Source: Pseudidiomarina sediminum DSM 21906 (GTDB lineage Bacteria; Pseudomonadota; Gammaproteobacteria; Enterobacterales; Alteromonadaceae). From it: a DNA stretch of 64,000 bases. The notes beneath the pieces were generated by a model. The model saw only the letters and a list, made by a program, of their open reading frames with translations. It was not told the origin of the DNA and ran no database searches. The stretch is taken from contig NZ_KE383983.1 of NCBI RefSeq assembly GCF_000423165.1, positions 517,965-581,964 on the forward strand. Reading direction: 5' to 3'. The translations under genes were made by a program, and so were the position numbers. Below, piece by piece: positions 1,361 to 60,219 of this stretch; the stretch's first letter is position 1, and every line of letters begins with the position of its first letter.

Positions 1361-2110
1361 ATGAAGATATTAGTGGCGGTGAAACGCGTCATTGATTACA
1401 ACGTGAAGGTGCGTGTCAAAGCTGACCAATCTGACGTTGATCTGGCGAACGTAAAAATGGCGCTGAATCCGTTCTGTGAAATTGCAGTAGAAGAAGCGGT
1501 ACGTCTGAAAGAACAGGGTATCGCAGACGAAGTTGTGGTCGTTTCTATCGGCCCTAAAGCTGTCCAAGAACAATTACGCACCGCGTTAGCCTTAGGCGCG
1601 GATCGTGCGATTCAAGTTGAAACTGAAGAGTTACCTGACTCGCTTGCGGTCGCCAAGTTACTCAAAGGTGTGGTGGAAAAAGAGCAACCACAACTGGTTA
1701 TTTTGGGTAAACAAGCGATTGACTCGGATAACAACCAGACCGGTCAAATGCTTGGCGCTTTGACAGGCATGCCACAAGGTACCTTTGCATCGAAAGTCGA
1801 TATGGCTGACGGTAGTGTTAATGTGACACGTGAAGTCGACGGCGGCTTGCAAACTGTGAAACTTAACTTACCGGCGATTGTGACTACCGATTTGCGATTG
1901 AATGAACCGCGTTACGCGTCATTGCCGAATATCATGAAAGCCAAGCGTAAACCTCTTGATGTGACCACCCCTGATGAACTTGGTGTGGCAGTCACACGCA
2001 CGGTGAAATTGTTGAAAGTCGAAGCCCCTGCTGAGCGTAGCGCTGGTGTGAAAGTTGCAGACGTCGCGGAGCTGGTCGAGAAATTGAAGAATGAGGCAAA
2101 AGTCCTATGA
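1361..2110 (+). CDS. etfB: Electron transfer flavoprotein, beta subunit
   Basis: A 249-residue EtfB. Together with EtfA it forms the soluble heterodimer that takes electrons from acyl-CoA and related dehydrogenases and passes them to ETF-quinone oxidoreductase. The N-terminus [20 protein letters not shown] is characteristic. The AMP-binding region is visible as [20 protein letters not shown], followed by the recognition-loop region ending in [20 protein letters not shown]. The length is standard for the family. The ATG follows a CGGGAACGATAAC stretch with only a weak ribosome site. Its TGA overlaps the etfA start (ATGA), so the two are translationally coupled. No dehydrogenase gene is adjacent. 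Confidence 0.95.
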
Positions 2111-3036
2111 GTATTTTAGTCATTGCCGAACACGATAATAAAGAACTAAGCCCAGCAACGCTTAAAACCCTAGCTGCGGCGCAAGCGATCGGTGGCGATA
2201 TCGATGTGCTGGTGGCTGGCGAAGGATGTCAGGCAGTTGCTGAAGCCGCAGCAAAAGCTGCTGGCGTAAGTAAAGTTCGCGTCGCGGATAATGCTGCCTA
2301 CGGTCATTTTCTTGCGGAAAACTTAGGTAGTTTGGTGGCCGAATTAGGCAAAGCGTACAGCCATATTTTGGCGGCGGCGACCACCACGGGCAAAAACTTT
2401 ATGCCGCGCACTGCGGCTTTGCTGGATGTCGCGCAAATCTCGGATATTATTGCCGTTGAGAGTGCTGACACCTTTAAGCGTCCAATTTATGCCGGTAACG
2501 CGATCGCCACCGTGCAATCGGAAGACGCAATTAAAGTGATCACCGTACGTGCAACCGCCTTTGATGCCGTTGCTGCCGACGGCGGAAATGCTAGCATTGA
2601 AGCCGTAGAACAAGTGATTAGCAATGATGTTGCAGCCTTTGTTGGTGAAGAGCTGGCACAATCTGAACGTCCAGATTTAACTGCGGCACGCGTGGTTATT
2701 TCCGGCGGTCGTGGTATGCAGAACGGTGAAAACTTCCAGTTATTGGAAAAAGTTGCCGATAAGCTGGGTGCTGCGGTTGGCGCTTCGCGCGCTGCGGTCG
2801 ATGCTGGCTTTGTACCGAACGATATGCAAGTCGGTCAAACAGGCAAAATTGTTGCGCCCGAGCTCTACATTGCCGTTGGTATTAGTGGTGCGATTCAGCA
2901 CTTGGCCGGCATGAAAGACTCGAAAGTCATTGTTGCCATCAACAAAGACGAAGAAGCACCGATTTTCCAAGTCGCTGACTATGGCTTGGTCGCTGATTTG
3001 TTTGACGTTTTGCCAGAGTTGGAACAACAACTCTAA
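2107..3036 (+). CDS. etfA: Electron transfer flavoprotein, alpha subunit
   Basis: A 309-residue EtfA, the FAD-binding partner of EtfB. The N-terminal domain has the usual ETF fold ([20 protein letters not shown]). The C-terminal FAD-binding domain shows the signature elements in order: [47 protein letters not shown] and the [17 protein letters not shown] strand. The start overlaps the etfB stop by four bases. A strong intrinsic terminator follows at 3059-3089, so etfBA looks like a complete two-gene operon. Confidence 0.95.
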
Positions 3037-3058
3037 GTTAACGACGTTACCTTTGCGA

Positions 3059-3089
3059 AAGCCCGCGCAGAATGTGCGGGCTTTTTTGT
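3059..3089 (+). terminator. Rho-independent terminator after etfBA
   Basis: The inverted repeat AAGCCCGC (3059-3066) and GCGGGCTT (3076-3083) is followed directly by a run of T. This is a textbook intrinsic terminator, 23 bases after the etfA stop. Confidence 0.9.
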
Positions 3090-3153
3090 TTCTAATGGGT
3101 GCAAAATTTGTAAATTTGACTATGGTTAGTGCTCCGATAACAGGAGAACAATC

Positions 3154-4065
3154 ATGAGAAATCTATTATTCGTCCTTGTGTTAGGGATAGTTTTGGCAAC
3201 CTCCAGCGCGGTCTGTTCTGCGCAAAGTTTGACCGATACAATCACTGTTGAGGGCGAACTTACCTATGCTGAGCATAGTTTCTTGGGGGCAGCGGCATTG
3301 ACTGAAAACGCCCACTTTATTGCAACCTTCGAAGTGGATCGTTTCGCCCCGGCCAGTAATTTTGACCCGACACAATTGGAATTTCCGGCAAGCGTATTAA
3401 GCCTTGAGGTGACGCTGTTTGAGGACCAAGGTATCGCACTTGATACAGGTGCGGTGCCGACAAGTTGTGAGGTGATTGTCGGTGCACCGCAGACCATGTC
3501 GAAGGCATTCGCTGATGGTGCACAAACGTTCGCTGCAGTCTACAGAATGCAGGGCGGCGACATGAACGGTCGCACGCAATTTTGCGGGGTGGGTATTGAG
3601 CAAATGATGATGCAGTTGTTTGCTGCTGGTATAGGTTTCCCGGTACCTCTGGCAGGTGCTACCGATGCCGATTTCACGGCGACATTTGAGGTTGCCTCTG
3701 AGCGGGGCTCACAGATGGTTTGGGCTGCGGGTATTGCACGCAACATAACTGTAGAAAGCCTTGATAGCGATCAAGATGGCGTTGCCGATTGGGATGATAA
3801 CTGTGCCTCGTCTGACCTCAGTGAAACCGTGGTATTTGCTGACGACCATGATTCTGGCGTCACCAATCAGACGGATGCGAATGGCTGTACGATTATGGAT
3901 CATTACGCTGCGTGTGAGACTGAGCAAACCACAAGCTTTTTAAGTTATCAGGGCCCAAGTTACTGTGAGTCTCAAGTGGCGTATCAGATGTATGGCATGC
4001 AGTTGATTAACTATGCTGAAGTGCGGCAATTACGGACTACTTTACTGGCAGCTTCACGCGACTAA
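3154..4065 (+). CDS. Calcium-motif secreted paralog 1 of 7
   Basis: First of seven tandem paralogs; I do not recognise a named family. It has 303 residues with a Sec signal peptide (hydrophobic LLFVLVLGIVLA, likely cleavage after CSA). A beta-rich body of about 175 residues follows, with a cysteine pair (TSCEVIVGAP and TQFCGVG) shared only with copy 2. Around residues 205-218 comes an EF-hand-like or thrombospondin-type-3-like motif, DSDQDGVADWDDNC. The C-terminal module has NGCTIMDHYAAC and SYCESQVAYQMY and ends in a helix with VRQLRTTL. Four cysteines in motif and module suggest two disulfides. The ATG follows AGGAGAACAATC. The export and calcium-binding roles are inferred from motifs; the true function is unknown. 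Confidence 0.8.
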   Translation: MRNLLFVLVLGIVLATSSAVCSAQSLTDTITVEGELTYAEHSFLGAAALTENAHFIATFEVDRFAPASNFDPTQLEFPASVLSLEVTLFEDQGIALDTGAVPTSCEVIVGAPQTMSKAFADGAQTFAAVYRMQGGDMNGRTQFCGVGIEQMMMQLFAAGIGFPVPLAGATDADFTATFEVASERGSQMVWAAGIARNITVESLDSDQDGVADWDDNCASSDLSETVVFADDHDSGVTNQTDANGCTIMDHYAACETEQTTSFLSYQGPSYCESQVAYQMYGMQLINYAEVRQLRTTLLAASRD

Positions 4066-4154
4066 CCTGTGCATTTTGTTTAATCTTTGTTTTTATAGTG
4101 CAAATGACATATTGAGTAATTGTCATCAAAAACTACCCTAGTCACTGTTATAGT

Positions 4155-4191
4155 GAGGCGTTGCGGAGCTTCCCGCTCGCCTCCTCTTTTT
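4155..4191 (+). terminator. Terminator between copies 1 and 2
   Basis: A nested hairpin: outer arms GAGGCG (4155-4160) and CGCCTC (4178-4183), inner arms GCGG (4163-4166) and CCGC (4173-4176), then CTCTTTTT. It lies only about 15 bases ahead of the ribosome site of copy 2. It could therefore sit in that gene's leader rather than only end copy 1. Confidence 0.7.
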
Positions 4192-4214
4192 GTATTCAGA
4201 TTTGAGGGTGGGGT

Positions 4215-5264
4215 ATGTCTTATTCAAAACAATTCATCGTGAGCGCAATGATTGCGGGCGCACTTAGCAGCTCTCCAGTGTTATTCGCACAAGAGATGAG
4301 CGAGACCGCATTGAATGTTGAAATTGAGGGGGTGATGACGGACTACTATGGGATGGCGACACCGCTCGATGAGACAGACTATACACTACCCTTAGACTTT
4401 ATTATTCGCGTACGGCAAGAGATTGATGAATATACTCTTTTGGGCTCAAGTGGCCCAACCACAAGCTTTGGTGATGTCGATTTAACGCTCGAAATCGAGC
4501 TACTTGATGCCAATGGTGAGGTGTTTTACTCGGATAGCCAAACGACGGTGTATCCGCAGTCAAATGAATGTATTTGGGGGGCACCAATAACCACCGTTGA
4601 AGATGTGCCGATCTGGGTTGATGCGCAAAACTCTGCGTACAATGATGCGCTGCGATTGTGCGTGCAAACTAAAGACTTTTCGTCGATTTATAAGCTGTTT
4701 GAGCTTTATGTTGGCGTCTTCGAACCTTGGTCTTACGGGCCGACGAGTGACGTAGAAGAGAATTTGGTTGCGAACGGTCCAGAGCGTTCAGTTTATCAAC
4801 TCAACGCTGAGGGATACCCTGAGTTTGTGCTTGGTGAAAATGTACAAGTCGTAGAATTTATCAATGCGCAACATGATCTTACCGATATTGGCGACCCCTA
4901 TGCTGAGCCCGATGAAAGTTTGTATGTCGACTTTATCTTCACGGGTTATACAACGCGGATTCAAGCGCTGATCAATGACGCCGATGATGATGGTATTGCC
5001 GACGAAGTGGATCAGTGCGATGCCTCATTATTAGATGAAACGGTAAGCTTTGATGGCGTTGATTCTGGCGTGACCAACGTGGTCGATGCGAACGGTTGCT
5101 CCGTGATGGATCACTACGCCGCTTGTGAAGCGGAACAGCAAGGCTCGGGATTCTTGGGGTATAGCGGTGCAAGCTATTGTGAGCAGCAAGTGGCCTATCA
5201 ACTCTATCGCGACGGACTCATTGATTACGCAGATGTGCGCGCCTTGCGAAATGCGTTGAACTAA
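4215..5264 (+). CDS. Calcium-motif secreted paralog 2 of 7
   Basis: A 349-residue paralog, the longest in the array. It has a signal peptide (MSYSKQFIVSAMIAGALSSS, likely cleavage after LFA) and a beta-rich body. A cysteine pair (SNECIWGAPI and RLCVQTKDF) is shared with copy 1, which marks these two as one subgroup. The calcium-type motif DADDDGIADEVDQC is at about residues 255-268. The C-terminal module carries NGCSVMDHYAACEAEQ, SGASYCEQQVAYQLY and LIDYADVRALRNAL. The C-terminus closely resembles copies 4 and 5. The ATG is preceded by GAGGGTGGGG. Terminators on both sides suggest its own transcript. Function unknown; probably exported. Confidence 0.8.
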   Translation: MSYSKQFIVSAMIAGALSSSPVLFAQEMSETALNVEIEGVMTDYYGMATPLDETDYTLPLDFIIRVRQEIDEYTLLGSSGPTTSFGDVDLTLEIELLDANGEVFYSDSQTTVYPQSNECIWGAPITTVEDVPIWVDAQNSAYNDALRLCVQTKDFSSIYKLFELYVGVFEPWSYGPTSDVEENLVANGPERSVYQLNAEGYPEFVLGENVQVVEFINAQHDLTDIGDPYAEPDESLYVDFIFTGYTTRIQALINDADDDGIADEVDQCDASLLDETVSFDGVDSGVTNVVDANGCSVMDHYAACEAEQQGSGFLGYSGASYCEQQVAYQLYRDGLIDYADVRALRNALN

Positions 5265-5294
5265 TGTGATAAAAGTGCATAAAAAGTAGACGTT

Positions 5295-5320
5295 AAGCCC
5301 GCATGTTGCGGGCTTTTTTC
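5295..5320 (+). terminator. Terminator after copy 2
   Basis: Arms AAGCCCGCA (5295-5303) and TGCGGGCTT (5307-5315) with a three-base loop, followed by a T run. Confidence 0.9.
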
Positions 5321-5484
5321 TGTGCTCAAAAAAACAACAGATTCTCTACCTTATTCCCATTGTTGAGCTCTTCATCACCTCCTATTTTTTAGTTCATCTG
5401 CGACGGCAGATAGCTATTGGAGACAATTAACTTTGGTCAGTTGCGGTCAGCAGTTTCGACCTTAACTCCCTTTGGAGAGTTGTG

Positions 5485-6393
5485 ATGAAAAAACATGCAC
5501 ACCGTTCATTATACGCCACTGCAATGGCGTCTTTCTTTTTGATTCCGACGACGCACGCCGAAGTGCAAAGTTACGTGTTCAACGGGACGTTAACCGATTT
5601 TTACTCGACGTTTTTTTCTGAAGCCACCAACGCTGGCATTGATACCTTTGTGCTTGAGGTTGATGTAGAAACGACAGCGTTATTGGTTTACCAAGATCCG
5701 ACAACTAAAAGTTACACCAACGTTGTGGCTCGATTTGAGACAACGTCCGGCGGTGGCGGGGGATGGATTTGGACGTTCCCAACCCCTAACTTTGACGAGG
5801 GCTCGATAAATGCTGTGACCTACAACAAAGCCGGCGATATGGATAGTCTTACTATTGAGCTTGATTTTATGCAATCTGGTTATCGCTATGTCGAATACGT
5901 TACGATTACGCAACAAGCACAACCGTTTTTGTGGCTTGGTGAGGGCTTTCCGTTGGTGTTAAGCGGTGACTATCAAGCGAACGTGTTTTATGACCTTGTT
6001 GCCTATGATGGTGAAAACCTCAGTTGGCAAGTCACCGGCGAAGGTTATACCACCTCTGTGGTTGGAACCTTTTCTGATAGTGACTTTGATGGTGTCGAGG
6101 ACGCCCTTGATCAATGTCCAAATTCAAACCTGGATGATACGGTCAGCTTCGGTGAGTTCGATTCGGGCGTGCCGAATGGTGTTGATGCGGATGGCTGTAG
6201 TCTGATGGATTATTATGCTGCCTGTGAAGCCGAACAGAGCGAGCCTACAGGCTTTTTCCAGCCTACCTATAGCGGAACCAGCTATTGTGAGCAGCAGGTG
6301 GGGTACCAGGCTTATCGCGATGGCTTGATTGATTACACTCAGTTGCGGACCTTACGGACAACGCTGTACCAGTATCACCGTAGTGGTGGCTAA
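5485..6393 (+). CDS. Calcium-motif secreted paralog 3 of 7
   Basis: A 302-residue paralog. I chose the ATG at 5485 (MKKHAHRSLYATAMASF) because TTGGAGAG lies at proper spacing; the GTG three bases earlier is less likely. The signal peptide probably ends at THA. The body (YVFNGTLTDFYSTFF and onward) is unlike copies 1, 2, 4 and 5 but aligns well with copy 6, including an ARFE strand and a C-terminal QYHRS tail. The calcium-type motif DSDFDGVEDALDQC is near residue 198. The module has DGCSLMDYYAACEAEQ and SYCEQQVGYQAYRDGLIDY. A glycine-rich GGGGGW stretch interrupts the body. Terminators flank it. Function unknown. Confidence 0.8.
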   Translation: MKKHAHRSLYATAMASFFLIPTTHAEVQSYVFNGTLTDFYSTFFSEATNAGIDTFVLEVDVETTALLVYQDPTTKSYTNVVARFETTSGGGGGWIWTFPTPNFDEGSINAVTYNKAGDMDSLTIELDFMQSGYRYVEYVTITQQAQPFLWLGEGFPLVLSGDYQANVFYDLVAYDGENLSWQVTGEGYTTSVVGTFSDSDFDGVEDALDQCPNSNLDDTVSFGEFDSGVPNGVDADGCSLMDYYAACEAEQSEPTGFFQPTYSGTSYCEQQVGYQAYRDGLIDYTQLRTLRTTLYQYHRSGG

Positions 6394-6416
6394 GCGCCGT
6401 CTGTAATCACTGACAG

Positions 6417-6441
6417 AAAAGCCCGCAGGAAGCGGGCTTTT
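6417..6441 (+). terminator. Terminator after copy 3
   Basis: Perfect arms AAAAGCCCGC (6417-6426) and GCGGGCTTTT (6432-6441) around a five-base loop. The A and T tails make it potentially active in both directions. Confidence 0.88.
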
Positions 6442-6532
6442 CTATGCTGAATGTCGTATTGGTGCAAAGGGAAAGTGGTTTTATAGTTTATGTGAAGTAA
6501 ATGCTAATAATTTTTAAACCACGGAGCCCCCA

Positions 6533-7525
6533 ATGAAACATTCCTTTTTAGTTGCTGGCGCAGCCCTGTCTATGCTTGCCCCGATAAGTTCCAGCCATGC
6601 TGAAGAACGCGTGCTAGAAGTCACCGGTGTGGTTGATATATTGATGGTGCCTTACGAAGTTCCCGAACAAGGTGAGTTAACCTTTACCGCGCTCATTACC
6701 GAAGACACTGCAGTGCCTGTTATTGACGAAGACACACCATTTGGTGACTACGGCTATTACGACGCGGTGAAGCAGGTCAGTATTGAAGTTGTAGACAATA
6801 CTGAACAGCTAGTTTTTTCCGATACTTTTGTTTTTCCTCTTACGTCGATTGATGATGAGGAGTATGGACCAAACGAAGGTGCTATTTCACTCTTTATGCC
6901 GGATGCTGTGACCAGCGATTGGATTCAGCCAAATGCGACCTGGTATGGCGCAAAAGTTAACGATAGTCAGACGAGTATCTCACTAAGAGTCGTCGCTTTA
7001 GGTCTGTCGCCTTTGCTGTCGCTCATTAACGATGGTGGTGACCCTTACATGCCGGAGATTGATTATCAACAGGATTATCCTCTGTTTGCTTCACTTATAC
7101 CATTTCCAACCTTAAAAGAAGGCTCACTTGTTTATCCGTTTACTTATGCTGTTTCGGATGAACTTAGTGAAAACGAAGAGCCTGAATTCTCTATAGGCGT
7201 TTATGGTATTGCTACCAACCTGCGTTACCTTGACGTCGATGCAGACGGCGATGGCGTGGTCGACAGTGAGGACGCCTGTGCCGTATCGCTACTTGACGAG
7301 CAGGTAACCTTAAAGGGTCAATTATTGGCGGTTGAGAACGTGGTGGATGGCAATGGTTGTTCGGTGATGGATCATTATGCAGCCTGTGAGGCTACGCAAG
7401 GCGAGGGCGGTTTCTTGGCCTATAGCGGTGCAAGCTACTGTGAACAGCAGGTGGCCTATCAGCTGTATCGCGAAGGTTTGATTGATTATAGCGACGTGCG
7501 CGCGCTGCGTAATGCACTGCGTTAA
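6533..7525 (+). CDS. Calcium-motif secreted paralog 4 of 7
   Basis: A 330-residue paralog with a clear signal peptide (LVAGAALSMLAPISSSHA) and a mature start of EERVLEVTGVV, almost the same as copy 5. The body aligns with copy 5 over its whole length (strands such as LVYPFTYA and YGIATNLRYL). The calcium-type motif DADGDGVVDSEDAC is near residue 237. The C-terminal module reads NGCSVMDHYAACEATQ, SGASYCEQQVAYQLY, then GLIDYSDVRALRNALR. Its last 210 bases are far more like copy 5 than the rest of the gene is. The ATG follows ACGGAGCCCCCA. Function unknown; export and calcium binding inferred. Confidence 0.8.
   Translation: MKHSFLVAGAALSMLAPISSSHAEERVLEVTGVVDILMVPYEVPEQGELTFTALITEDTAVPVIDEDTPFGDYGYYDAVKQVSIEVVDNTEQLVFSDTFVFPLTSIDDEEYGPNEGAISLFMPDAVTSDWIQPNATWYGAKVNDSQTSISLRVVALGLSPLLSLINDGGDPYMPEIDYQQDYPLFASLIPFPTLKEGSLVYPFTYAVSDELSENEEPEFSIGVYGIATNLRYLDVDADGDGVVDSEDACAVSLLDEQVTLKGQLLAVENVVDGNGCSVMDHYAACEATQGEGGFLAYSGASYCEQQVAYQLYREGLIDYSDVRALRNALR
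7316..7525 (+). repeat. 3'-end duplicate, member A (copy 4)
   Basis: The last 210 bases of copy 4 align without gaps to 8500-8709 of copy 5. By hand I count roughly 28 differences, most of them near the two ends; the middle is almost identical. It encodes the conserved cysteine module. Confidence 0.75.
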
Positions 7526-7552
7526 AAGCTCTTGCGATATTCCATTATTTTT

Positions 7553-7586
7553 AAAAGGTAGCTTCCGCGAGGGAGTTACCTTTTTT
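7553..7586 (+). terminator. Terminator after copy 4
   Basis: Arms AAAAGGTA (7553-7560) and TACCTTTT (7577-7584) enclose a further partly paired segment. A T run follows. Confidence 0.8.
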
Positions 7587-7722
7587 GTGGACGTGTTGTT
7601 CTGAATAAGCGTTTGGTTCAGAGTTTGAGCCCCTATGAGCATCGGTATATTGTTCGAAATTACGCCGGCATTCTATATTTTATCTGTCACTTTTTAACAA
7701 AATAAATTTAAGTTGGTGCACA

Positions 7723-8709
7723 ATGAAATATCTAACGATGCGACTCGGTATAGCTGTATTTGCTTTGGCATCTTGCTTTTCAGTTCATGCCGAAGAGCGA
7801 GTCCTAGAAATCACTGGTGTGGTCGAAGATTTACCCAGCCCTTACGGAGCTGTTGCTCCTGCAGAGATGCTTAGGTTCAAGGCTTACGTTTTTGAAAGAA
7901 CCGAAGCCTCTCAGCGTGCTAATTTGATTCCTTTTATCGATCTATCTTACGGCTACTCGGTCACTCGAATGAGTATTGAAGTACTGGATGGTGAAGATGA
8001 AATCGTTTTTACGGATGCGATAGATTTTGAGTTTCCTCGTAACACCAGTGAGGCAGAAGCAATCCCGGGAACTGATTACACCTATTCACAGTTTTCAAAG
8101 CTTCCTCATGATCCCTTCTGGTCCCATCAACATGCAAGTTGGTCTGGCACCAGTGGCTCATTGCCCGAGAAAGCTCGTCTCGTTGAGTTAGGCTTAAGCT
8201 TTTTGACGAGAATGATCGCCGAGGATGACTATTATCAACCTAGTGTTGGCTACGACGAAGATGCTTTGGTTTTTGTCGAAGATAGCCTCTTTCCTACCTT
8301 CATTGAAGGCGCTCTGGTGTACCCATTTCGTTATTACCTAGCGAATGATTTTGGCGGCGATTTGAGTGAGTTTGATACCGGTGTTTTTGGTTACGCAACG
8401 CAATTACGTTACGTCGTATTGGATGTTGACGGTGATGGAGTTCTCGATGCTGATGACCAATGTCTTGCGTCACTTGCAGCTGATTTCGTTACCTTGAATG
8501 GCCAACTGTTGACGGTTGAGAACGTGGTGGATGGCAACGGTTGTTCGGTGATGGATCATTACGCTGCCTGTGAGACCGAGCAAGGCGAGGGCGGTTTCTT
8601 GGCCTATAGCGGTGCCAGCTACTGTGAACAGCAGGTGGCCTACCAGCTGTATCGCGCAGGTTTGATTGATTACGCCGATGTGCGAGAACTGCGCACGGCT
8701 TTACGTTAG
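7723..8709 (+). CDS. Calcium-motif secreted paralog 5 of 7
   Basis: A 328-residue paralog, closest to copy 4. The signal peptide (LGIAVFALASCFSVHA) leads into EERVLEITGVVEDL. The body ends in FGYATQLRYV. The calcium-type motif DVDGDGVLDADDQC is near residue 234. The module has NGCSVMDHYAACETEQ and SGASYCEQQVAYQLYRAGL and ends in VRELRTALR. The ribosome site ahead of the ATG is weak (TTGGTGCACA). Only 39 bases and no terminator separate it from copy 6, so these two are probably one transcript, unlike the other members. Function unknown. Confidence 0.8.
   Translation: MKYLTMRLGIAVFALASCFSVHAEERVLEITGVVEDLPSPYGAVAPAEMLRFKAYVFERTEASQRANLIPFIDLSYGYSVTRMSIEVLDGEDEIVFTDAIDFEFPRNTSEAEAIPGTDYTYSQFSKLPHDPFWSHQHASWSGTSGSLPEKARLVELGLSFLTRMIAEDDYYQPSVGYDEDALVFVEDSLFPTFIEGALVYPFRYYLANDFGGDLSEFDTGVFGYATQLRYVVLDVDGDGVLDADDQCLASLAADFVTLNGQLLTVENVVDGNGCSVMDHYAACETEQGEGGFLAYSGASYCEQQVAYQLYRAGLIDYADVRELRTALR
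8500..8709 (+). repeat. 3'-end duplicate, member B (copy 5)
   Basis: Partner of 7316-7525, the conserved 3' end of copy 5. The high similarity here against a more diverged 5' part suggests recent gene conversion or stronger constraint on the module. Confidence 0.75.
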
Positions 8710-8748
8710 TGGCGAGAGAGCCGCATCACAGTCTTGCAAGGAGACGTT

Positions 8749-9663
8749 ATGAAAACACGGTTTAAATTAGCAGCCACTGCGTTGCTTGGCGTAGTTATCG
8801 GAAGTGGTTGTTCAGAGGTGCACGAATATATTATCGAGGGTGATGTGCTCCAGTTCGAAGCGAGCTTCTATGATGCTGAACAGAACCAACGGGTGGAACA
8901 CTTTCAAATCGAAGCCGAGCTTGAGTTTTGGGACGATGACGAGCCTTATATCGATACCTTTGATACCCAAGCCTATGAGGCTGTATTAGCGCGCTTCGAA
9001 GGTACTTTCTCAGGTGAGGCGCTTTCGTTTATCAGCGCTTACCCTCGTGATTTTCCTGGTGCTAACTACAACCGCTCAGTGTTCAGTAAAGCGAACGGTA
9101 CCGATGAAGTCACCTTTCAAGTTGAATATCAGGTGAATGACCGTACGGTAACCTTCGGTTATACCATGACACAAGCGATGGCCCCTTTGGTCAATTTGAC
9201 GCGGGCTTATCCACAGCTGTTCGCCGGGGAGTATCGCGCTAATGCGCGTTATTTCAGTTCAGTTGTGGACAGCCAGCAACAGGTTTTGTCGGAAGTCTCG
9301 ATGCAGGGTTTTGTAAATCGAATCTCAGCGTTGCTCGGTGATGCTGACGGCGATGGTGTCGATGATGGTATCGATGCTTGTCTTGATTCGCAGCAAGGTG
9401 GTGAAGTTGCTTTAGGGGCGTTTAACTCCGGTGTTGATAATGTGATGGGGAGCGATGGTTGCTCATTGATGGACCGTTACATGGCCTGCCAAGCGGATGA
9501 ATATGATGCTGGCGCTCCTTGGCTTAGTTACAGCGGGCCAAGCTATTGCGAACAACGCGTGGCGTATGATGCCTATCGTGAGGGCATGATTGATTACACC
9601 GAAGTACGACTGTTGCGAACAATGGTAACGCAGTATCACCGTAGCCAGAATAACTTCACTTAA
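8749..9663 (+). CDS. Calcium-motif secreted paralog 6 of 7, possible lipoprotein
   Basis: A 304-residue paralog. The ATG at 8749 is preferred because AAGGAGACGTT precedes it directly; a TTG 15 bases upstream is within that ribosome site. The N-terminus MKTRFKLAATALLGVVIGSG is followed by Cys, so it may be a lipoprotein signal, but the residue at minus 3 is Gly, which is atypical for a lipobox. The body aligns with copy 3, and both end in a QYHRS tail. The calcium-type motif DADGDGVDDGIDAC is near residue 198. The module is DGCSLMDRYMACQADE plus SYCEQRVAYDAYREGMIDY. It is probably cotranscribed with copy 5. Function unknown. Confidence 0.78.
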   Translation: MKTRFKLAATALLGVVIGSGCSEVHEYIIEGDVLQFEASFYDAEQNQRVEHFQIEAELEFWDDDEPYIDTFDTQAYEAVLARFEGTFSGEALSFISAYPRDFPGANYNRSVFSKANGTDEVTFQVEYQVNDRTVTFGYTMTQAMAPLVNLTRAYPQLFAGEYRANARYFSSVVDSQQQVLSEVSMQGFVNRISALLGDADGDGVDDGIDACLDSQQGGEVALGAFNSGVDNVMGSDGCSLMDRYMACQADEYDAGAPWLSYSGPSYCEQRVAYDAYREGMIDYTEVRLLRTMVTQYHRSQNNFT

Positions 9664-9680
9664 TCTCAAGTGGATACTGT

Positions 9681-9706
9681 AAAAAGGAGGTTTACCTCCT
9701 TTTTTG
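9681..9706 (+). terminator. Terminator after copy 6
   Basis: AAAAAGGAGG (9681-9690), loop TTTA, CCTCC (9695-9699), then a T run. A compact hairpin 18 bases after the stop codon. Confidence 0.85.
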
Positions 9707-9781
9707 TTGTGTATTGTTGGACTTTCTCCTATCTTAGCAATGTAAAGAAGCCAACATTATTGGACATAAGGGAGAACGGAC

Positions 9782-10741
9782 ATGTGCGCTACTAAAGGAA
9801 TGAAATCACTTATTGCTGCAGGATGTTTGCTCGCGACCTCAGGTGGGCTCGCGCAAGCGGAAGAGTCGCAGGTTTTTATTGAGGGTGAGTTGGTGTTTGC
9901 CAGTTTACCGATGCTGAATGATTATCAAGGCCCCTTAGCTGAGCCATTGTTATTTTCGGCGGTGGTTACCGAAGATAGTAGTCAGGCGCAGCCCATCATG
10001 TTGTTCAACTTAAGCGAAGAGTATACCGAATCAACCCGAGCGCTGCAGATGGAAATTCGCACCGCAGCAGGTGAGGTGTTGTACTCGGAAACCACCGACG
10101 ATACTGTGCTTGCAACGGCTAACTTTGTTGAGCGTTACGCTGCTTTTGCCTATGGACAACAAGCGCAAAATACTGGCTACCCCAGTGGCACGGCCTTTTG
10201 GGCTCTGATCGCTGGTGGCACAGAGCAGTTTGTTGATCGCGAACTCTCACTTGGTGCGGATGTTGTTTCGCGAGGTGTCGGTATGGGCGGTAGCGCAGGT
10301 ATTGCGCAGTTGTTCGCAACCACCGAGGAATATCCGGTGTTAGCCGAAGGAAGCTATAGTTACGCGTTTTTGTATTATGACGAAACCTTTAATAACATTG
10401 CGGGCAATGGCTACCAAGGCGTTGTTCAAGGGTATGCGACACGTATTTCTTTTGGCGTGACCGATAGCGATGGTGATGGTGTCGAAGATAGTATGGATCA
10501 ATGTCCAGCATCAGATAGCTCGACAACCGTAGTGTTCAATGGTGTGGATTCTGGCGTCGCTAACCCAGTGGATGCAAGCGGTTGTAGCCTGCGCGATCAA
10601 TTTGTAGCATGTGAAACCCGAAGTAATTGTACGATGAAACTGATTCGTGACTTCCGTCGTCTCGGCCTTGTTTCTGTGCATGAAGCCAATGCGCTGCGCC
10701 AAGCAAGCCAAGTCGGATTCCATTCAAACCGTCCGCGCTAA
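9782..10741 (+). CDS. Calcium-motif secreted paralog 7 of 7, divergent C-terminus
   Basis: A 319-residue paralog, preceded by AAGGGAGAACGGAC. The signal peptide (KSLIAAGCLLATSGGLAQA) leads to EESQVFIEGELVF. The body ends in YATRISFGV. The calcium-type motif DSDGDGVEDSMDQC is near residue 228. After NGVDSGVANPVDASGCSLRD the module departs from the other six: the SYCEQQVAY element is missing and the end reads TRSNCTMKLIRDFRRLGLVS. This ending looks more like a cysteine C-terminal module I recall from many TSP3-type proteins in other phyla (a GC, an AAC and a later Cys before an amphipathic helix). Function unknown. Confidence 0.78.
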   Translation: MCATKGMKSLIAAGCLLATSGGLAQAEESQVFIEGELVFASLPMLNDYQGPLAEPLLFSAVVTEDSSQAQPIMLFNLSEEYTESTRALQMEIRTAAGEVLYSETTDDTVLATANFVERYAAFAYGQQAQNTGYPSGTAFWALIAGGTEQFVDRELSLGADVVSRGVGMGGSAGIAQLFATTEEYPVLAEGSYSYAFLYYDETFNNIAGNGYQGVVQGYATRISFGVTDSDGDGVEDSMDQCPASDSSTTVVFNGVDSGVANPVDASGCSLRDQFVACETRSNCTMKLIRDFRRLGLVSVHEANALRQASQVGFHSNRPR

Positions 10742-10781
10742 AACAAACGGCTATAACAGCTGTGCTAGTCAATCTGTTGGT

Positions 10782-10812
10782 AACTCGGTGGGTGCAGTGT
10801 GCTCGCCGAGTT
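10782..10812 (+). terminator. Hairpin after copy 7, possible terminator
   Basis: AACTCGGTG (10782-10790) pairs with CGCCGAGTT (10804-10812) with one mismatch. A short T-rich stretch (TATTTTTCG) follows about eight bases later. Weak as an intrinsic terminator, but it is the only candidate in this 160-base gap. Confidence 0.4.
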
Positions 10813-10904
10813 TGCGTGTATTTTTCGTTACCGAGCACTTGCATATTTGTAACTCATCGGACATGATTGACGTTATAACATCCTAATTGGATTAGGTGGC
10901 TAAC

Positions 10905-12749
10905 ATGAAAAGAAGAACAACTATGCTAAAAAAATTACCTCTCGCTACTGCGGTAGCGCTAGCATTCGCAGGAAGTGCAGGGGCTCAGGCCGCTGAGTTC
11001 GAAGTAGGCGATTTCCGCGTAAAATTCGATTCAATCATCTCATATGGTGCAGCTTGGCGGATGGAAGACCGCGATATGCGCTTGATCCATCCTGGTAATA
11101 TGGAAGGCGGTATGGGTCAGTCAGGTGTTGCCGATGACGGTAACCTGAACTATGACAAAGGCGACATGGTTTCATCGGTGATTAAAGGCGTTCATGATCT
11201 CAGTATTGATGGTGGCGACTACGGTGCTTTCGTACGTTTCAAATATTGGTACGACGATGTCATCAAAAATCAAGAAGTTGCGCATGGTCACCCAGCAACT
11301 AACTACTACCCTGATGTTACCCTCGATAACGATGGTCTTGATGACTATTCAACGGGCTCAGGTTTTGAATTGTTAGATGCCTTCGTTTATGCCTATTTTG
11401 ATTTAGGCGATATGCCGGCGAACCTGCGTGTGGGTCGTCAGGTATTGAGCTGGGGTGAAAGTACGTTCTTCTTCAACGGTATTAATGCGATCAACCCGAT
11501 TGACGTGAACGCTGTGCGCCGTCCAGGGGTTGAGATTAAAGAAGCACTTTTACCTGTGGGTATGGTGAACTTGAACTTAGGTTTAACCGACGAGACCAGC
11601 CTTGATTTGTTCTATCAGTATGAGTGGGATAATACCAAGTTGGATGGTTGTGGTACTTTCTTCTCAACCGTTGATATTCTAGGTGGACCTGGCTGTAATA
11701 AAGTTACCTTAAACCCAACACTTGTGGCAGGCGATCCGTCGAGCAGTCTAAGTGACCGTGACTCGATTTTATACGGAACCTACCTTGACCGTGCTCCGAA
11801 TATCGAGCCAGAAGACGGCGGTCAGTATGGTGCTGCGTTACGTCACTACAGCTCTGACTTAGATGTGGAGTTTGGCTTCTACTACATGAATATCCATAGC
11901 CAAACGCCAATCATCTCCGCGTACAACTGGGTCGAGCATCCAACCCCAAGTTTCAGTCACCCTGATGGTATTCCAATTGCTGGTCCGAACTACGTGTTGC
12001 AGTATGCTGAAGACCAAGAAATCATGGGTGCTAGCTTTAGTACCAACTTCGGTTTGTGGTCAGTCGGTGGTGAGTACAGCTTCCGTCCTGACTTACCGGT
12101 GCAAATCAACACCACTGAAATCTTGACCGCTGGTTTACGCGCTGGTGTTCCGAGCACTTTCTCGAACCGCATTGAGCGTGATGAGAACGGTACTATCACC
12201 AACTTAGGTGAATTACAGCGTGGTTATGACGAGGTTGATGTAAGTCAGTTTCAGTTAACCGGTATTCGTTTTATTGATAATGTGATGGGCGCAAGTCGTT
12301 TGACCTTCATTGGTGAAATCGCGTTGAACAAAGCCCATTCATTGGCAGGTCTTGATGAGCAGCGCTACGGCCGTAACCCTGTTTACGGTAAATGTTTGAC
12401 GGTTGCCGATCAGCAAATGATGGGGAACCCATCACCGGCAGGCGATATCAACTGTGAAGGTTTTGTCACAGGTTCATCTTGGGGTTATCGCACACGTTTC
12501 GTCGCTGAGTACAACAACGTGTTCTCAGGTTGGAACTTGTCGCCGACGCTAGCCTTTGGTCATGATGTCAATGGTACGTCGCCGAACAGTAACTTCTTAG
12601 AAGGCCGCAAAACCATCGGCCTAAGCCTTGATGCGAACTACCTATCGTCATACAAAATTGGCGTGGGGTATAACATCAATACGGGTGGCGACTATGAAGC
12701 TGCGAGTGACCGAGACTTTGCCTCAATCAGCTTCAGCTATAGTTTCTAA
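10905..12749 (+). CDS. DUF1302 family outer-membrane protein
   Basis: A 614-residue protein. The ATG at 10905 follows AGGTGG at good spacing; an in-frame ATG at 10923 is an alternative. A signal peptide (LATAVALAFAGSAGAQA, cleavage near AEA) is followed by FEVGDFRVKFDSIISYGAAW and MEDRDMRLI, the start typical of DUF1302 proteins. The body alternates in the way of a beta barrel, and the last residue is Phe after SFSYS, a usual outer-membrane C-terminus. Family members are often found with DUF1329 proteins and lipid or sterol genes in Pseudomonas; no DUF1329 gene is here. The substrate is unknown. A small inverted repeat (CCTAAT, ATTAGG) lies across the ribosome site. Confidence 0.82.
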   Translation: MKRRTTMLKKLPLATAVALAFAGSAGAQAAEFEVGDFRVKFDSIISYGAAWRMEDRDMRLIHPGNMEGGMGQSGVADDGNLNYDKGDMVSSVIKGVHDLSIDGGDYGAFVRFKYWYDDVIKNQEVAHGHPATNYYPDVTLDNDGLDDYSTGSGFELLDAFVYAYFDLGDMPANLRVGRQVLSWGESTFFFNGINAINPIDVNAVRRPGVEIKEALLPVGMVNLNLGLTDETSLDLFYQYEWDNTKLDGCGTFFSTVDILGGPGCNKVTLNPTLVAGDPSSSLSDRDSILYGTYLDRAPNIEPEDGGQYGAALRHYSSDLDVEFGFYYMNIHSQTPIISAYNWVEHPTPSFSHPDGIPIAGPNYVLQYAEDQEIMGASFSTNFGLWSVGGEYSFRPDLPVQINTTEILTAGLRAGVPSTFSNRIERDENGTITNLGELQRGYDEVDVSQFQLTGIRFIDNVMGASRLTFIGEIALNKAHSLAGLDEQRYGRNPVYGKCLTVADQQMMGNPSPAGDINCEGFVTGSSWGYRTRFVAEYNNVFSGWNLSPTLAFGHDVNGTSPNSNFLEGRKTIGLSLDANYLSSYKIGVGYNINTGGDYEAASDRDFASISFSYSF

Positions 12750-12766
12750 TGGCTGCAATAGTTTAG

Positions 12767-12792
12767 AAAAACCCGCTTCGGCGGGTTTTTTT
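12767..12792 (+). terminator. Terminator after DUF1302 gene
   Basis: AAAACCCGC, a short loop and GCGGGTTTTTTT. A strong intrinsic terminator that ends at 12792. Confidence 0.92.
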
Positions 12793-12872
12793 ATGCCGTT
12801 TATCGAACACGACTTGCGCAAGGGCTGCGCAACTCGTATTGATAGAGTATTGCTGCGAACAAGGGGAATAGA

Positions 12873-14900
12873 ATGAAAAATTATATTGTAGGTGCCGTCA
12901 TCGCCAGCTCGCTGCAGCTGACCACTAGCGCTGCGTTTGCATCTGAACAGAACACACTGCAATTGGAAGATGTATTTGAGCTGGAATATGCGAGCTCACC
13001 GAGCATTCATCCTTCGGGCGACTACACCGTATTTGTCCGGAACTATATGGATATTATGACGGACCGTAAGTATGGCGCACTTTGGCAAGTAGACCATGCT
13101 GGCGACATGCGACCTCTACTTGGTGGTGATGCCAATGATCATTCAGCGGTCTGGTCTCCCGATGGGAGCAAACTCGCTTTTGTGTCAAACCGTAGCGGCC
13201 GTCAGCAGATCCATCTGTATTGGACCGATACCGGTAAACATGCACCAGTGACACGACTCACCGGCGCACCGAGCAACCTCGCTTGGTCCCCAGACGGTCA
13301 ATGGCTTGCGTTTACGATGTTTACACCAGCGCCTAAAGCCCCACCGGTGAGCTTACCGAAGGCGCCAAAAGGGGCGAAGTGGGCTGAGGCTCCAAAATAC
13401 ATCGATAAAGACAACTATCGTTTTGATGGTTCAGGTTACGCCGCCGATGGTTATCAACAGATTTATGTGATGCCCGCCAGTGGTGGCACTCCGCGTCAAG
13501 TCACCTCGGGTGAACACCACCACGGTGGTACTTTGGCGTGGCGTGATGACAGTCAGCACATTATTTTCTCTGCGAACTTGCATGATGAGGCGTTTTTCGA
13601 GCCGCAGAACTCGGAGCTGTATCAAGTTGCCTTGGCTACCGGTGAGTTAACCCAGTTGACCGACCGCGATGGCCCTGACCGTTCACCGGTCATCAGCCCT
13701 GACGGCCAGAAAGTCGCTTGGGTTGGGTACGATGATAAAAAAATGAGTTATCAGCTTAACCAGCTGTACGTGATGGATCTCAAGGAACGCAAACCACAGT
13801 TGTTAACTGCCGACCTCGATTACAGTGTGGGCAGCGTGCAATGGCGTGACGATAGCCAAGCGCTTTACTTTGCGTATGACCGTCATGGCAAAGGCCATAT
13901 CGTGATGCAAGGGTTAGATGGTAAGCGTGCACAATTGACCGACGCGATGGGCGGTTTGAGTTACAGCCGTCCGTACAGTGGTGGCGCTTTTGACGTGAAT
14001 GGCAAGCAACTGGTGTTTACTAAGGCTGATGCCGAGCGCCCTGCGGACTTGGTGTTACAACATGGCAAGATGCAGCGTCAATTGACTGCCTTGAATGATG
14101 ACTTACTCGCCACCAAACATCTGGGCCGAGTGGAAGAAATTTGGTATGACTCTCAGCATGGTGATTATCAAATTCAAGGGTGGTTGGTGTACCCACCTAA
14201 TTTTGATCCTGAGCAAAAATATCCATTGATTCTGGAAATCCACGGTGGTCCACATACCGCTTATGCGGAGAGTTTTTCGGCAGAGGTACAATTGATGGCT
14301 GCAGCTGGAAACGTGGTGTTGTATACCAACCCACGCGGTAGTACCAGTTATGGTGAAGACTTTGCCCAAGAGATTCATCACAACTATCCGAGTCAGGACT
14401 ATGATGATTTGATGGATGGTGTCGACGCTGTTATTGCGAAAGGCTTTATCGATGAAGATCGTTTGTATGTCACTGGCGGCAGTGGTGGTGGGGTGTTGAC
14501 CGCTTGGATTGTTGGCCATACCGACCGTTTTCGTGCGGCTGTCGTAGCGAAGCCGGTGATCAATTGGTACAGCTTTGTACTCACTGCAGATATGTACAAC
14601 TACTTTGGTGCTTATTGGTTCCCAGGTTTACCTTGGGAGCATCTTGACCATTACATGAAGTACTCGCCGATCAGTTATGTCGGCAATGTAACGACACCGA
14701 CCATGTTGTTGACTGGCGATGCGGATTATCGCACGCCAATCTCTGAGTCTGAGCAGTATTACCAAGCCCTCAAGCTGGCCGGCGTAGAGACCGCGATGGT
14801 GCGTGTTCCCGACGCACCGCACGGGATCTATAGTCGTCCATCAAACCTAATGGCAAAAGTGGCCTATATACTGTACTGGTTTGAAAAGTACAGCGATTAA
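12873..14900 (+). CDS. S9 family peptidase (prolyl oligopeptidase type), exported
   Basis: A 675-residue serine peptidase with a signal peptide (LQLTTSAAFA) and so probably periplasmic. The N-terminal part (about residues 30-420) is a WD40-like beta propeller with repeated SPDG motifs (AVWSPDGSKLAFVSNRSG, LAWSPDGQWLAFT). The C-terminal alpha/beta hydrolase domain holds the triad in order: Ser in YVTGGSGGGVLTAW (about 536), Asp in LLTGDADYRTPISE (about 614) and His in VPDAPHGIYSR (about 649). An HGGPHTAY oxyanion-type motif is present. It likely cleaves dipeptides or short peptides, for instance as a DPP- or acylaminoacyl-type enzyme. The ATG follows AAGGGGAATAGA. The stop overlaps the convergent GT25 gene. 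Confidence 0.9.
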   Translation: MKNYIVGAVIASSLQLTTSAAFASEQNTLQLEDVFELEYASSPSIHPSGDYTVFVRNYMDIMTDRKYGALWQVDHAGDMRPLLGGDANDHSAVWSPDGSKLAFVSNRSGRQQIHLYWTDTGKHAPVTRLTGAPSNLAWSPDGQWLAFTMFTPAPKAPPVSLPKAPKGAKWAEAPKYIDKDNYRFDGSGYAADGYQQIYVMPASGGTPRQVTSGEHHHGGTLAWRDDSQHIIFSANLHDEAFFEPQNSELYQVALATGELTQLTDRDGPDRSPVISPDGQKVAWVGYDDKKMSYQLNQLYVMDLKERKPQLLTADLDYSVGSVQWRDDSQALYFAYDRHGKGHIVMQGLDGKRAQLTDAMGGLSYSRPYSGGAFDVNGKQLVFTKADAERPADLVLQHGKMQRQLTALNDDLLATKHLGRVEEIWYDSQHGDYQIQGWLVYPPNFDPEQKYPLILEIHGGPHTAYAESFSAEVQLMAAAGNVVLYTNPRGSTSYGEDFAQEIHHNYPSQDYDDLMDGVDAVIAKGFIDEDRLYVTGGSGGGVLTAWIVGHTDRFRAAVVAKPVINWYSFVLTADMYNYFGAYWFPGLPWEHLDHYMKYSPISYVGNVTTPTMLLTGDADYRTPISESEQYYQALKLAGVETAMVRVPDAPHGIYSRPSNLMAKVAYILYWFEKYSD

Positions 14901-38292: not shown

Positions 38293-39231
38293 ATGCAGAT
38301 TCAGAATCCACAATTAAAGCGTGTAGTTACCTTTGCTAGCGAGCCGCGCATTGTGCGTGCTGCCTTGTGGTTGCTTACCGCACTTCTACTTATTGCCGCG
38401 GTTTGGCTATTTGCCAAGCTAACGTGGCAAGTCATGGCACCTAAAGTTCAACCTGAACGTGGCCCGCTTGCGGTCAGTGTCTCATCCTCTTCTTCTGGTG
38501 CTGTTTCAACAATGAAGCGGTTAGCCCAGTTTGACCTGTTTGGGGCGGCAGTTACCCCAGAGCAGGGCGCGCAAAATGCCCCGAAAACGCGTTTGAATGT
38601 GCGTTTGTTGGGTGTATCCGCCAGTAATATTCAAGAGCGTTCGGCAGCGATTATTGAAAAAGACCGTCGCCAAGAAGTCTATGTGATCGGTGACTCCATC
38701 ACTGGTTCGCGGGTGACCATTGAAGAGATTTACGCAGATCGCGTGATTTTGAACAATAATGGTGTGTTAGAGACGCTTGAATTAGAAGGCATTGGTGAAT
38801 TGAGTGACGGCCTTAGCCTGACGCTCGAAAATCAACAGCGCGCTGCGCAAAGCCAGCCAGTGCGTGCACGCCAGAATGACGACGATGATGATGATGACCG
38901 CGGTGCGCGTCGAGAACGAGCGCGCGAAGCATTTCAGCAGGCTCGTGCAAATGGCGCTGATGGCCTCATGAATTATGTACGGATCAGTCCTTCAATGGCC
39001 GATGGTGGTTTGCAAGGGTACCGCTTAAGTCCGGGGAAATTTCCTGAGGTGTTTGCGGACGCGGGCTTTAAATCAGGTGACATTGCCGTAGCGTTGAACG
39101 GCCAAGATCTTACCGACGTCGCCAGTGCCCAAGTGGCGATTGAAGAATTAAAAACAGCGCAACGGATTATCATTACCGTGTTGCGCGATGAGAACTATAT
39201 TGATTTGGAACTCGCAGTTCCAAGTAACTAA
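38293..39231 (+). CDS. gspC: Type II secretion protein GspC (system 1)
   Basis: A 312-residue inner-membrane protein that couples the secretin to the platform. A transmembrane helix (LWLLTALLLIAAVWLFAKLT) is at about residues 27-46. The HR domain follows (FDLFGAA, then LNVRLLGVSASNIQERSAAI). A linker has seven consecutive Asp (38878-38898) before RGARRERAREAF. A C-terminal PDZ domain (YRLSPGKFPEVFADAGFKSG, DIAVALNGQDLTD) ends it. First gene of a complete gspC-N operon. A GTTAGAA/TTCTAAC inverted repeat at 38240-38257 lies in its upstream region. Confidence 0.93.
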   Translation: MQIQNPQLKRVVTFASEPRIVRAALWLLTALLLIAAVWLFAKLTWQVMAPKVQPERGPLAVSVSSSSSGAVSTMKRLAQFDLFGAAVTPEQGAQNAPKTRLNVRLLGVSASNIQERSAAIIEKDRRQEVYVIGDSITGSRVTIEEIYADRVILNNNGVLETLELEGIGELSDGLSLTLENQQRAAQSQPVRARQNDDDDDDDRGARRERAREAFQQARANGADGLMNYVRISPSMADGGLQGYRLSPGKFPEVFADAGFKSGDIAVALNGQDLTDVASAQVAIEELKTAQRIIITVLRDENYIDLELAVPSN

Positions 39232-39259
39232 TTGAACGAATAGAACAATAGGACCAACC

Positions 39260-42839: not shown

Positions 42840-42841
42840 CT

Positions 42842-44086: not shown

Positions 44087-44098
44087 TCTGGAGGAAGT

Positions 44099-44521
44099 AT
44101 GAATAAAGCAAAAGGTTTTTCACTGATTGAAGTGATGGTGGTGATTGTAATCATTGGTTTGTTAGCCACGCTGATCTTACCGAACGTGTTGGGCTCGGCG
44201 GATCAAGCGAACCGTCAAAAAGTGAAAGCAGATATTGTGGCGTTGGAAAATGCGTTGTCGCAATACAAGTTGGACAACGGCGTGTTCCCAACTACCGAGC
44301 AGGGACTCGAAGCTTTGTTGGAAGAGCCAATGAGTGAACCGCGGCCGCGTAACTATCGCCGTGGCGGCTATATCCAGCGCTTACCGCTTGACCCTTACGG
44401 CTCAGAGTATGTGCTGTTGAGCCCGGGTGAGTTTGGTGATGTCGATATTTTCTCGCTCGGTGAAGATCGCCAAGCAGGTACTGACGACGATATTGGTAAC
44501 TGGAACCTTGAAGGCAACTAA
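44099..44521 (+). CDS. gspG: Major pseudopilin GspG (system 1)
   Basis: A 140-residue pseudopilin. The prepilin site is KG-FSLIEVMVVIVIIGLLA, with Glu5 present. The C-terminal calcium-site loop is seen in LLSPGEFGDVDIFSLGEDRQ with an acidic AGTDDDIGNW end. AGGAGG-like purines (TGGAGGAAGT) precede the ATG. The last 14 bases overlap the start of gspH. Confidence 0.96.
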   Translation: MNKAKGFSLIEVMVVIVIIGLLATLILPNVLGSADQANRQKVKADIVALENALSQYKLDNGVFPTTEQGLEALLEEPMSEPRPRNYRRGGYIQRLPLDPYGSEYVLLSPGEFGDVDIFSLGEDRQAGTDDDIGNWNLEGN

Positions 44522-50813: not shown

Positions 50814-50851
50814 AAAGCACTGAAATTTTGTCAATTGAAAAGCGAACTCCT

Positions 50852-60207: not shown

Positions 60208-60219
60208 TGATAACCAACA

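Follow-up and report, generated by a model that had tools for sequence, protein, structure and literature searches.

Why should seven neighbouring genes encode proteins with unlike bodies and one common C-terminal end? This question is raised by a tandem array at positions 3154-10741 of a 64,000-nucleotide stretch of the Pseudidiomarina sediminum DSM 21906 genome (contig NZ_KE383983.1, positions 517,965 to 581,964 of the forward strand), which is referred to here as the window. Comparison of the array with its relatives in the genus shows that the bodies of the proteins keep their own ancestry while the C-terminal modules evolve as a set within each genome, an observation that is new here. The module is under concerted evolution, partly through gene conversion. 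A literature search with partial coverage, made in titles and the starts of abstracts, found no report of such a tag under concerted C-terminal-domain evolution in tandem secreted families.

The array and its shared module

An earlier note on this DNA had described seven same-strand genes with a common C-terminal module, and this description holds, as all seven open reading frames (ORFs) lie at the place and on the strand given and the likeness of their C-termini is far beyond chance. The array genes are as follows.

3154-4065, + strand: gene 1, 303 amino acids (aa), signal-peptide-like start, body with a cysteine pair, module from 3763
4215-5264, + strand: gene 2, 349 aa, body clusters with P. 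piscicola and P. atlantica genes, module from 4977
5482-6393, + strand: gene 3, 303 aa, GTG start, module from 6076
6533-7525, + strand: gene 4, 330 aa, module from 7238
7723-8709, + strand: gene 5, 328 aa, module from 8422
8749-9663, + strand: gene 6, 304 aa from ATG (309 aa from TTG at 8734), module from 9340
9782-10741, + strand: gene 7, last in the array, 319 aa, short module at 10463-10738 that tracks orthology

The seven proteins (303-349 aa) have N-termini that look signal-peptide-like by eye and divergent, beta-rich bodies. They align across their last ~100 residues, where a DxDxDGxxDxxDxC loop is followed by a hairpin and then by the GCS, AC, SYCE and LR elements, and their module-profile scores are 116-169 bits, although these same rows trained the profile. 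Four cysteines are invariant across the seven. Most of the motifs that the earlier note had listed as shared are indeed present in 7/7 proteins (the DxDxDG..D..D.C motif, GCS or GCT, AC and LR), but SYCE occurs in 6/7, as gene 7 keeps the loop, GCS, AC and LR and lacks the SYCEQQVAY stretch. The proposed division of the bodies into subgroups is backed by the body tree for genes 4 and 5 and for genes 3 and 6; in genes 1 and 2 the extra cysteine pair of the body is present, as had been said, but the two do not group on that tree.

Separate histories of bodies and modules

For the trees, 63 family ORFs were taken from the P. sediminum genome, from five other species (P. atlantica, P. piscicola, P. 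terrestris, P. aquimaris and P. insulisalsae) and from seven congeners that carry a single gene. The module tree has 54 rows, leaving aside the seven single genes, a fragment of 131 aa and a gene that lacks the loop, and the body tree has 53, a further row with a very short body having been dropped. To account for the six species labels, the module tree requires 12 changes (minimum 5; shuffled mean 28.4, with 0/200 shuffles as low) and the body tree 30 (shuffled mean 28.6, with 189/200 as low). The sorting of modules by species comes from P. sediminum itself (2 changes), P. atlantica (3) and P. aquimaris (1), and the branch that unites the P. sediminum modules is weak (75/94). The body tree has many deep branches that are long and uncertain, but the change counts rest on no single one of them.

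Individual groups show the same separation. In P. aquimaris, all six modules fall into one clade (100/99) although the genes lie at four separate places, and a clade of the corresponding bodies is rejected (p 1.2e-4); since one module form is found at four places, tandem position alone does not explain the likeness. Four P. atlantica genes have grouped modules, and their bodies as a group are rejected as well (p 0.004). Conversely, when nine body-ortholog groupings picked from the body tree were tested against the module data, 8/9 were rejected (p 8e-11 to 0.023; two are nested). Pairwise identities run in opposite directions, with P. piscicola L037_4351 and P. atlantica L039_5165 being 77% identical in the body and 55% in the module, and P. 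atlantica L039_6296 and L039_4026 being 26% identical in the body and 86% in the module. Gene 7 stands apart from this pattern, as its four copies cluster across species on both trees like ordinary orthologs.

Some of the tree results weigh against modules evolving as a set. The modules of P. piscicola and P. terrestris are unseparated on the module tree and, because they intermingle, each species needs 6 changes, which is about the shuffled level; the two species are mixed on the body tree too. The module data leave the ninth body-ortholog grouping, one gene from another place in each of P. piscicola, P. insulisalsae and P. terrestris, unrejected (p 0.30). P. piscicola and P. terrestris also have two pairs of close bodies; the modules of one pair stay paired on the module tree (85/92), and those of the other fall within a group of three (85/85), so the discordance between body and module is not universal.

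DNA repeats and gene conversion

Self-comparison of five arrays found 40 DNA repeat pairs at E <= 1e-5, of which 39 lie wholly in the module (3' of the loop-motif start in both genes), though the module makes up 27% of the array DNA; the lone exception is a gene duplication in P. piscicola. The repeat tracts start 54-205 bp past the loop-motif start, with one exception (6 bp), and the shared piece is therefore mainly the hairpin and helices and not the calcium loop. Two such tracts in the window are given below.

7304-7488, + strand: module tract of gene 4, DNA 90.8% identical to gene 5 at 8488-8672; bodies unmatched at E <= 1e-5
5076-5254, + strand: module tract of gene 2, DNA 78.7% identical to gene 4 at 7337-7515; bodies 26% identical in amino acids

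Some pairs are recent copies, an example being the P. atlantica genes 4026 and 6296, with a module synonymous divergence (dS) of 0.70 and near-identical codons. Most pairs look older. Fourfold sites are the same in 0.26-0.54 of positions in within-species module pairs (by species and segment, gene 7 types left out), compared with 0.32-0.36 for modules between species and 0.29-0.33 for bodies; between species, these sites are near saturation even in the bordering genes etfA and DUF1302 (0.31-0.55 same). Conversion is therefore sporadic, and selection likely also keeps the amino acids of the module alike.

The slot and copy number across the genus

The array occupies a slot between two genes that form its borders in 26/26 congeneric genomes, the P. 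sediminum genome included.

2107-3036, + strand: etfA, left border of the slot
10896-12749, + strand: DUF1302 gene (PF06980), right border of the slot

The slot holds 0 to 7 array copies among the 26 genomes. Gap lengths, computed from the etfA and DUF1302 coordinates, are as follows for the six species.

P. sediminum: 7862 bp, 7 genes
P. atlantica: 7963 bp, 7 genes
P. piscicola: 8077 bp, 7 genes
P. terrestris: 6023 bp, 5 genes
P. aquimaris: 4641 bp, 4 genes, the last without the loop
P. insulisalsae: 1687 bp, 1 gene and a decayed second copy

Elsewhere the slot contains one gene of a related type (seven genomes, gap 1251-1380 bp), one gene-7-type gene without the loop (two genomes), or a gap of about 130-281 bp with no room for a family gene (nine genomes). 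Since all 26 genomes share the borders while the content varies, the slot is old and has seen both gain and loss of copies. The module is also found outside the slot. A profile search of the 2.62-Mb P. sediminum genome gave 24 matches, 7 of them in the array, 15 at C1:632-671 kb and 2 on C5. Matches occur in 13/26 genomes of the genus, with 9 in P. atlantica, 8 in P. piscicola, 6 each in P. terrestris and P. aquimaris, 3 in P. insulisalsae (one a remnant) and 1 in each of seven other congeners.

Several slots have contents of their own. A decayed second array copy at about 1400-1560 of L133 (G002) has only its module end left, a sign of gene loss in the slot. Gene-7-type proteins in L120 and L121 (G007, G018) and at L055:10493-11341 keep the last helices and lack the calcium loop and hairpin. 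By eye, in the slots of L122 (G013) and L123 (G001) the place of array genes appears to be taken by a Phd/YefM-type antitoxin together with a PIN-type toxin.

Structure and relatives of the module

An AlphaFold2 model of the gene 3 protein, made from 35 family rows, has a mean predicted local distance difference test (pLDDT) score of 88.4. It consists of a body of strands (residues 28-196), a calcium-type loop that has no regular structure, a hairpin (220-231) and three C-terminal helices (241-252, 268-279 and 285-300). A model of the module alone (gene 5, 30 rows; pLDDT 84.1) has its elements in the same order. The loop probably binds calcium, and the module cysteines probably form disulfides. 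Foldseek searches against the PDB with the whole model and with the module model gave no match at E <= 0.001, so no known fold is claimed. The module profile matched one chain among solved structures, from the OmpA family, and this match is limited to the thrombospondin type 3 (TSP3) stretch (profile positions 1-17).

The likeness to TSP3 repeats, including the bacterial type (PF02412, PF18884), is confined to the single DxDxDGxxDxxDxC loop of the module. Pfam TSP_3 (PF02412) matches 4/7 array proteins at E <= 1, the best being gene 7 with 18.2 bits, and all seven are below the gathering cut-off of 25; among the 35 family members, 26 match at E <= 0.5 with a best E of 2.8e-4. The comparison with TSP3 made in the earlier note is thus fair as a resemblance but stays under the Pfam cut-off. 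The module has one loop only, which is followed by a hairpin and three helices, a continuation that TSP3 repeats are not known to have. Dockerin is absent from the 8 Pfam families matched at E <= 0.5 by the 35 members, and the module has only one calcium-type loop, where a dockerin has two calcium-loop/helix repeats. None of the seven array proteins matched an NCBIfam model above its cut-off, and the best E among the 35 members was 0.0052. The impression that the module has no named family accordingly stands for Pfam and NCBIfam, but profile comparison places it within a wider, unnamed module.

This wider type is first met in the seven single slot genes of congeners, which have NHGxxVSCVSHLAKxLR or similar where the window module has GPSYCExQVAYxLYR. 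In profile comparisons based on alignments of 2 to 7 rows, the window module matched these single genes at 99.4% (E 9.9e-22), and the single genes matched a module from other genera of the family (L112, L108) at 97.1% (E 6.6e-11), while direct comparison of the window module with that of the other genera covered the TSP3 end only (67%). The window module therefore belongs to the wider TSP3 + NHGxxVSC module solely via two profile steps, and is apparently a clade-specific form of it. The module of the other genera (L112, L108, L115) shows by eye the same order of TSP3 loop, GCS, cysteines and helical C-terminus, with NHGxYVSC (in the form NHGxYVSCVAHA) replacing GPSYCExQV, and differs in having one match per genome and bodies that by eye are unlike those of the window. 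It ends proteins with export-type starts and was found in 6/147 genomes of the family, the genome of the query included (4 strong and 2 weak matches).

Beyond the family the signal fades. The wider-type query found 0/299 phylum genomes, in a set that had no positive control. The window-type profile matched 7/295 genomes of the order including that of P. sediminum, the other six only at positions 1-36 of 90, which is the TSP3 end. With the C-terminal half of the profile, 102 of 398 phylum genomes had a match at E <= 1; outside P. sediminum these were partial, with a best E of 0.0013, and two that were inspected (L085, L087) look unrelated. In another genus of the family, a TSP3-rich protein of L107 (G696; open frame of 1396 aa) ends in a related module, and the part of the query that it matches is also matched by two further open frames there (1134 and 1082 aa).

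Type II systems and the Slr4 cassette

Two type II systems had been noted in the window, and both are confirmed, the second of them reaching its secretin beyond the window's right end.

38293-47097, + strand: general type II genes gspC, D, E, F, J and K and one gene with a pilin-methylation motif; candidate exporter
54956-62407, + strand: second type II-like set with an ATPase, a platform protein, one gene with a pilin-methylation motif and others assigned by eye; candidate partner system
L136:2254-3906 (G000:C1:582753-584405), just right of the window: Slr4 S-layer gene, directly after the type II-like set

The secretin of the second set is followed by a 550-aa protein with an export-type start that matches PF19526 (S-layer protein Slr4) with E 1e-23 and 84.6 bits against a cut-off of 25. 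In Pseudoalteromonas tunicata the slr4 gene likewise lies directly downstream of a type II cluster, according to the part of that study consulted (PMC7821379), and the second set in P. sediminum looks like a dedicated S-layer system.

Slr4 was found in 10/26 genomes of the genus, with no match in the other 16, and occurs in two types. Type A is a single copy in six genomes; these proteins are 54-87% identical to one another and form one clade of the Slr4 tree (100/100). Type B is present as three or four copies in four genomes and is 28-44% identical to the type A proteins of P. sediminum and P. atlantica; one type B copy, in G003, is broken by a stop codon. Full-type modules occur in exactly the six type A genomes (6/6), and the type B genomes have no module match (0/4). 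Among the 16 genomes without Slr4, seven have one related single gene and nine have none.

The distribution of the two types departs from the history of the slot borders. On a tree of etfA and DUF1302, which represents these two genes and not the whole genome, the type B genome G003 stands beside P. terrestris (91/90) within the P. piscicola group (97/99), and the type B genomes G007 and G018 stand beside P. aquimaris (87/88), while the fourth, G008, is unplaced. Both type B (p 1.3e-35) and type A (p 1.8e-9) are rejected as clades on this tree. The last 200 residues of the secretin (106 in one genome) split by Slr4 type with support of 100/99. Since Slr4 and the secretin ends split by type, unlike the etfA + DUF1302 tree, it seems that the Slr4/type II cassette was exchanged, at least partly, as one unit. 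For a flippase-type gene adjoining the cassette, however, G008 clusters with type A genomes (7 rows).

The Slr4/array label changes 3 times on the locus tree, and several points weaken the association. There are only 2 well-supported independent pairs (4 on all branches), and no significance can be attached to the link between array and Slr4 type because the two traits coincide, are therefore coded alike, and match by construction. The slot lies ~51-57 kb from the Slr4 cassette in 9/10 Slr4 genomes (in P. aquimaris the cassette is on a separate contig), and this linkage could help array and Slr4 to change together; countering this, the slot borders follow another tree, and the dispersed module copies are also missing in type B genomes. 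The NHG-type form, moreover, cannot depend on Slr4, as its seven carrier genomes have no detected Slr4.

Proposed function of the module

The seven genes would encode exported proteins whose differing beta-rich bodies do differing jobs, with export probably by type II secretion. The common module, with its calcium-type loop, hairpin, three helices and four cysteines, would be the tag by which all of them dock to a single extracytoplasmic partner. The likeliest partner would be the Slr4-type S-layer, with the type II system encoded beside Slr4 as second candidate, so that the array products would be S-layer-associated surface proteins; selection for fit to the partner, with gene conversion supplying copies, would keep the modules alike within a genome. 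This reading is suggested by there being many bodies with one tag, which is alike within a genome and across unlinked loci and absent with the other cassette type. It is preferred tentatively, and its chance of being correct is put at somewhat below even. The earlier note had proposed a tag for sorting, anchoring or partner binding, for which the concerted evolution and the co-occurrence with one Slr4/secretin type provide support that is indirect and not direct. A fuller version, in which the folded module plugs many type II-exported clients into a particular Slr4 lattice, conversion spreads the module and the clients are lost upon a cassette swap, is doubtful.

Three other explanations can be set against docking. 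Gene conversion alone might account for the likeness, if the 3' repeats of tandem genes recombine and the module is conserved just for folding, with no species-specific partner. Near-identical DNA tracts between genes with unlike bodies speak for this explanation, and in L050 the segments 6687-7003 and 8951-9268 are 87.5% identical over ~320 bp and extend 49-50 bp beyond the stop codons while the bodies are 26% identical. However, the P. aquimaris module form is common to unlinked loci, the fourfold identities of 0.26-0.54 indicate that recent conversion misses most pairs, and the link to Slr4 type is left unexplained. As some pairs are clear copies but most are not recent, conversion is retained as a rival, an unlikely one, and not taken as the sole cause.

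It is also conceivable, though a little less probable than conversion alone, that the module itself acts as the export signal and that a type II system, perhaps the Slr4-linked one, recognises it, so that species differences follow the components of that system. The secretin end beside Slr4 splits into the same A and B types, and two type II-like sets lie within the same window, both of which speak for this explanation. Yet the secretin comparison is limited to the C-terminal end of one secretin, a general gsp system is also present, and it is general knowledge that type II cargo rarely has one common linear C-terminal signal. Finally, the module could join family members to each other in a heteromeric surface fibre or matrix, so that members within a cell must match. 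Many paralogues per genome with matched modules would fit such obligate co-assembly, but a heteromer needs several members, and P. insulisalsae has a single full gene left in the slot plus one elsewhere, seven congeners have a single NHG-type copy, and the gene 7 module is outside the homogenised set; this is considered the least probable of the three.

If the module is a docking tag, it differs in kind from the most familiar tags for bringing many different proteins to the bacterial surface, which are short peptides handled by a membrane protease. PEP-CTERM is a tag of this sort, found at the end of many otherwise dissimilar exported proteins of a single genome; like the GlyGly-CTERM and MYXO-CTERM tags, it combines a membrane helix and a basic tail with a short motif and is processed by a membrane protease. 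GlyGly-CTERM (PMC3237569) and MYXO-CTERM (PMC11980579), as described in the parts of these sources consulted, are likewise shared by many unlike exported proteins of one genome. The array proteins resemble these in sharing a C-terminal piece, but the window module is a folded domain without a membrane helix. Its C-termini are by eye helices without a hydrophobic stretch, for example GLIDYADVRALRNAL (helices 75-86 and 92-102 of the module model), and the hydrophobic helix and basic tail of GlyGly-CTERM, MYXO-CTERM and PEP-CTERM are absent, the NCBIfam scan being the only search that covered these tags. A sortase- or rhombosortase-type tag was rejected because the module has no membrane helix, and the sortase-like partner suggested in the earlier note is not borne out, as the sequences have neither a C-terminal membrane helix nor a basic tail.

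A parallel in proposed role is offered by the S-layer-associated proteins of Lactobacillus, which are diverse and bound non-covalently on the S-layer (PMC7090030, in the part consulted), although this is a Gram-positive system with other domains. No client family for Slr4 S-layers was met in the part of PMC7821379 consulted, and literature searches of partial coverage found no paper that combines Pseudidiomarina with 'thrombospondin type 3' or with S-layer. Such a folded tag, evolving as one set on carriers that each retain their own ancestry, amounts to a natural experiment in partner co-evolution. The switch between A and B cassettes offers matched relatives, namely P. terrestris with G003 and P. 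aquimaris with G007/G018, and these make it directly testable what is displayed on a Gram-negative S-layer, and how.

Other features of the window

Terminator-like sites lie 3' of etfA, gene 2 and gene 6, with the gene 2 site repeated 3' of gene 3, and their number in the scan is no above-chance excess (10 vs 9.5). A single operon for all seven genes was considered against these sites, which are themselves not above chance in number. Promoter-like consensus sites are rarer in window 2900-13000 than in shuffles (4 vs a mean of 13.4, standard deviation 3.2). By eye, a cysteine lies close to the likely cleavage site of the gene 6 protein (GSGC; window 8749-8830), which may for this reason be a lipoprotein. 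Between the two type II sets, at 50828-54536, lie YjbF- and YjbH-type exopolysaccharide genes.

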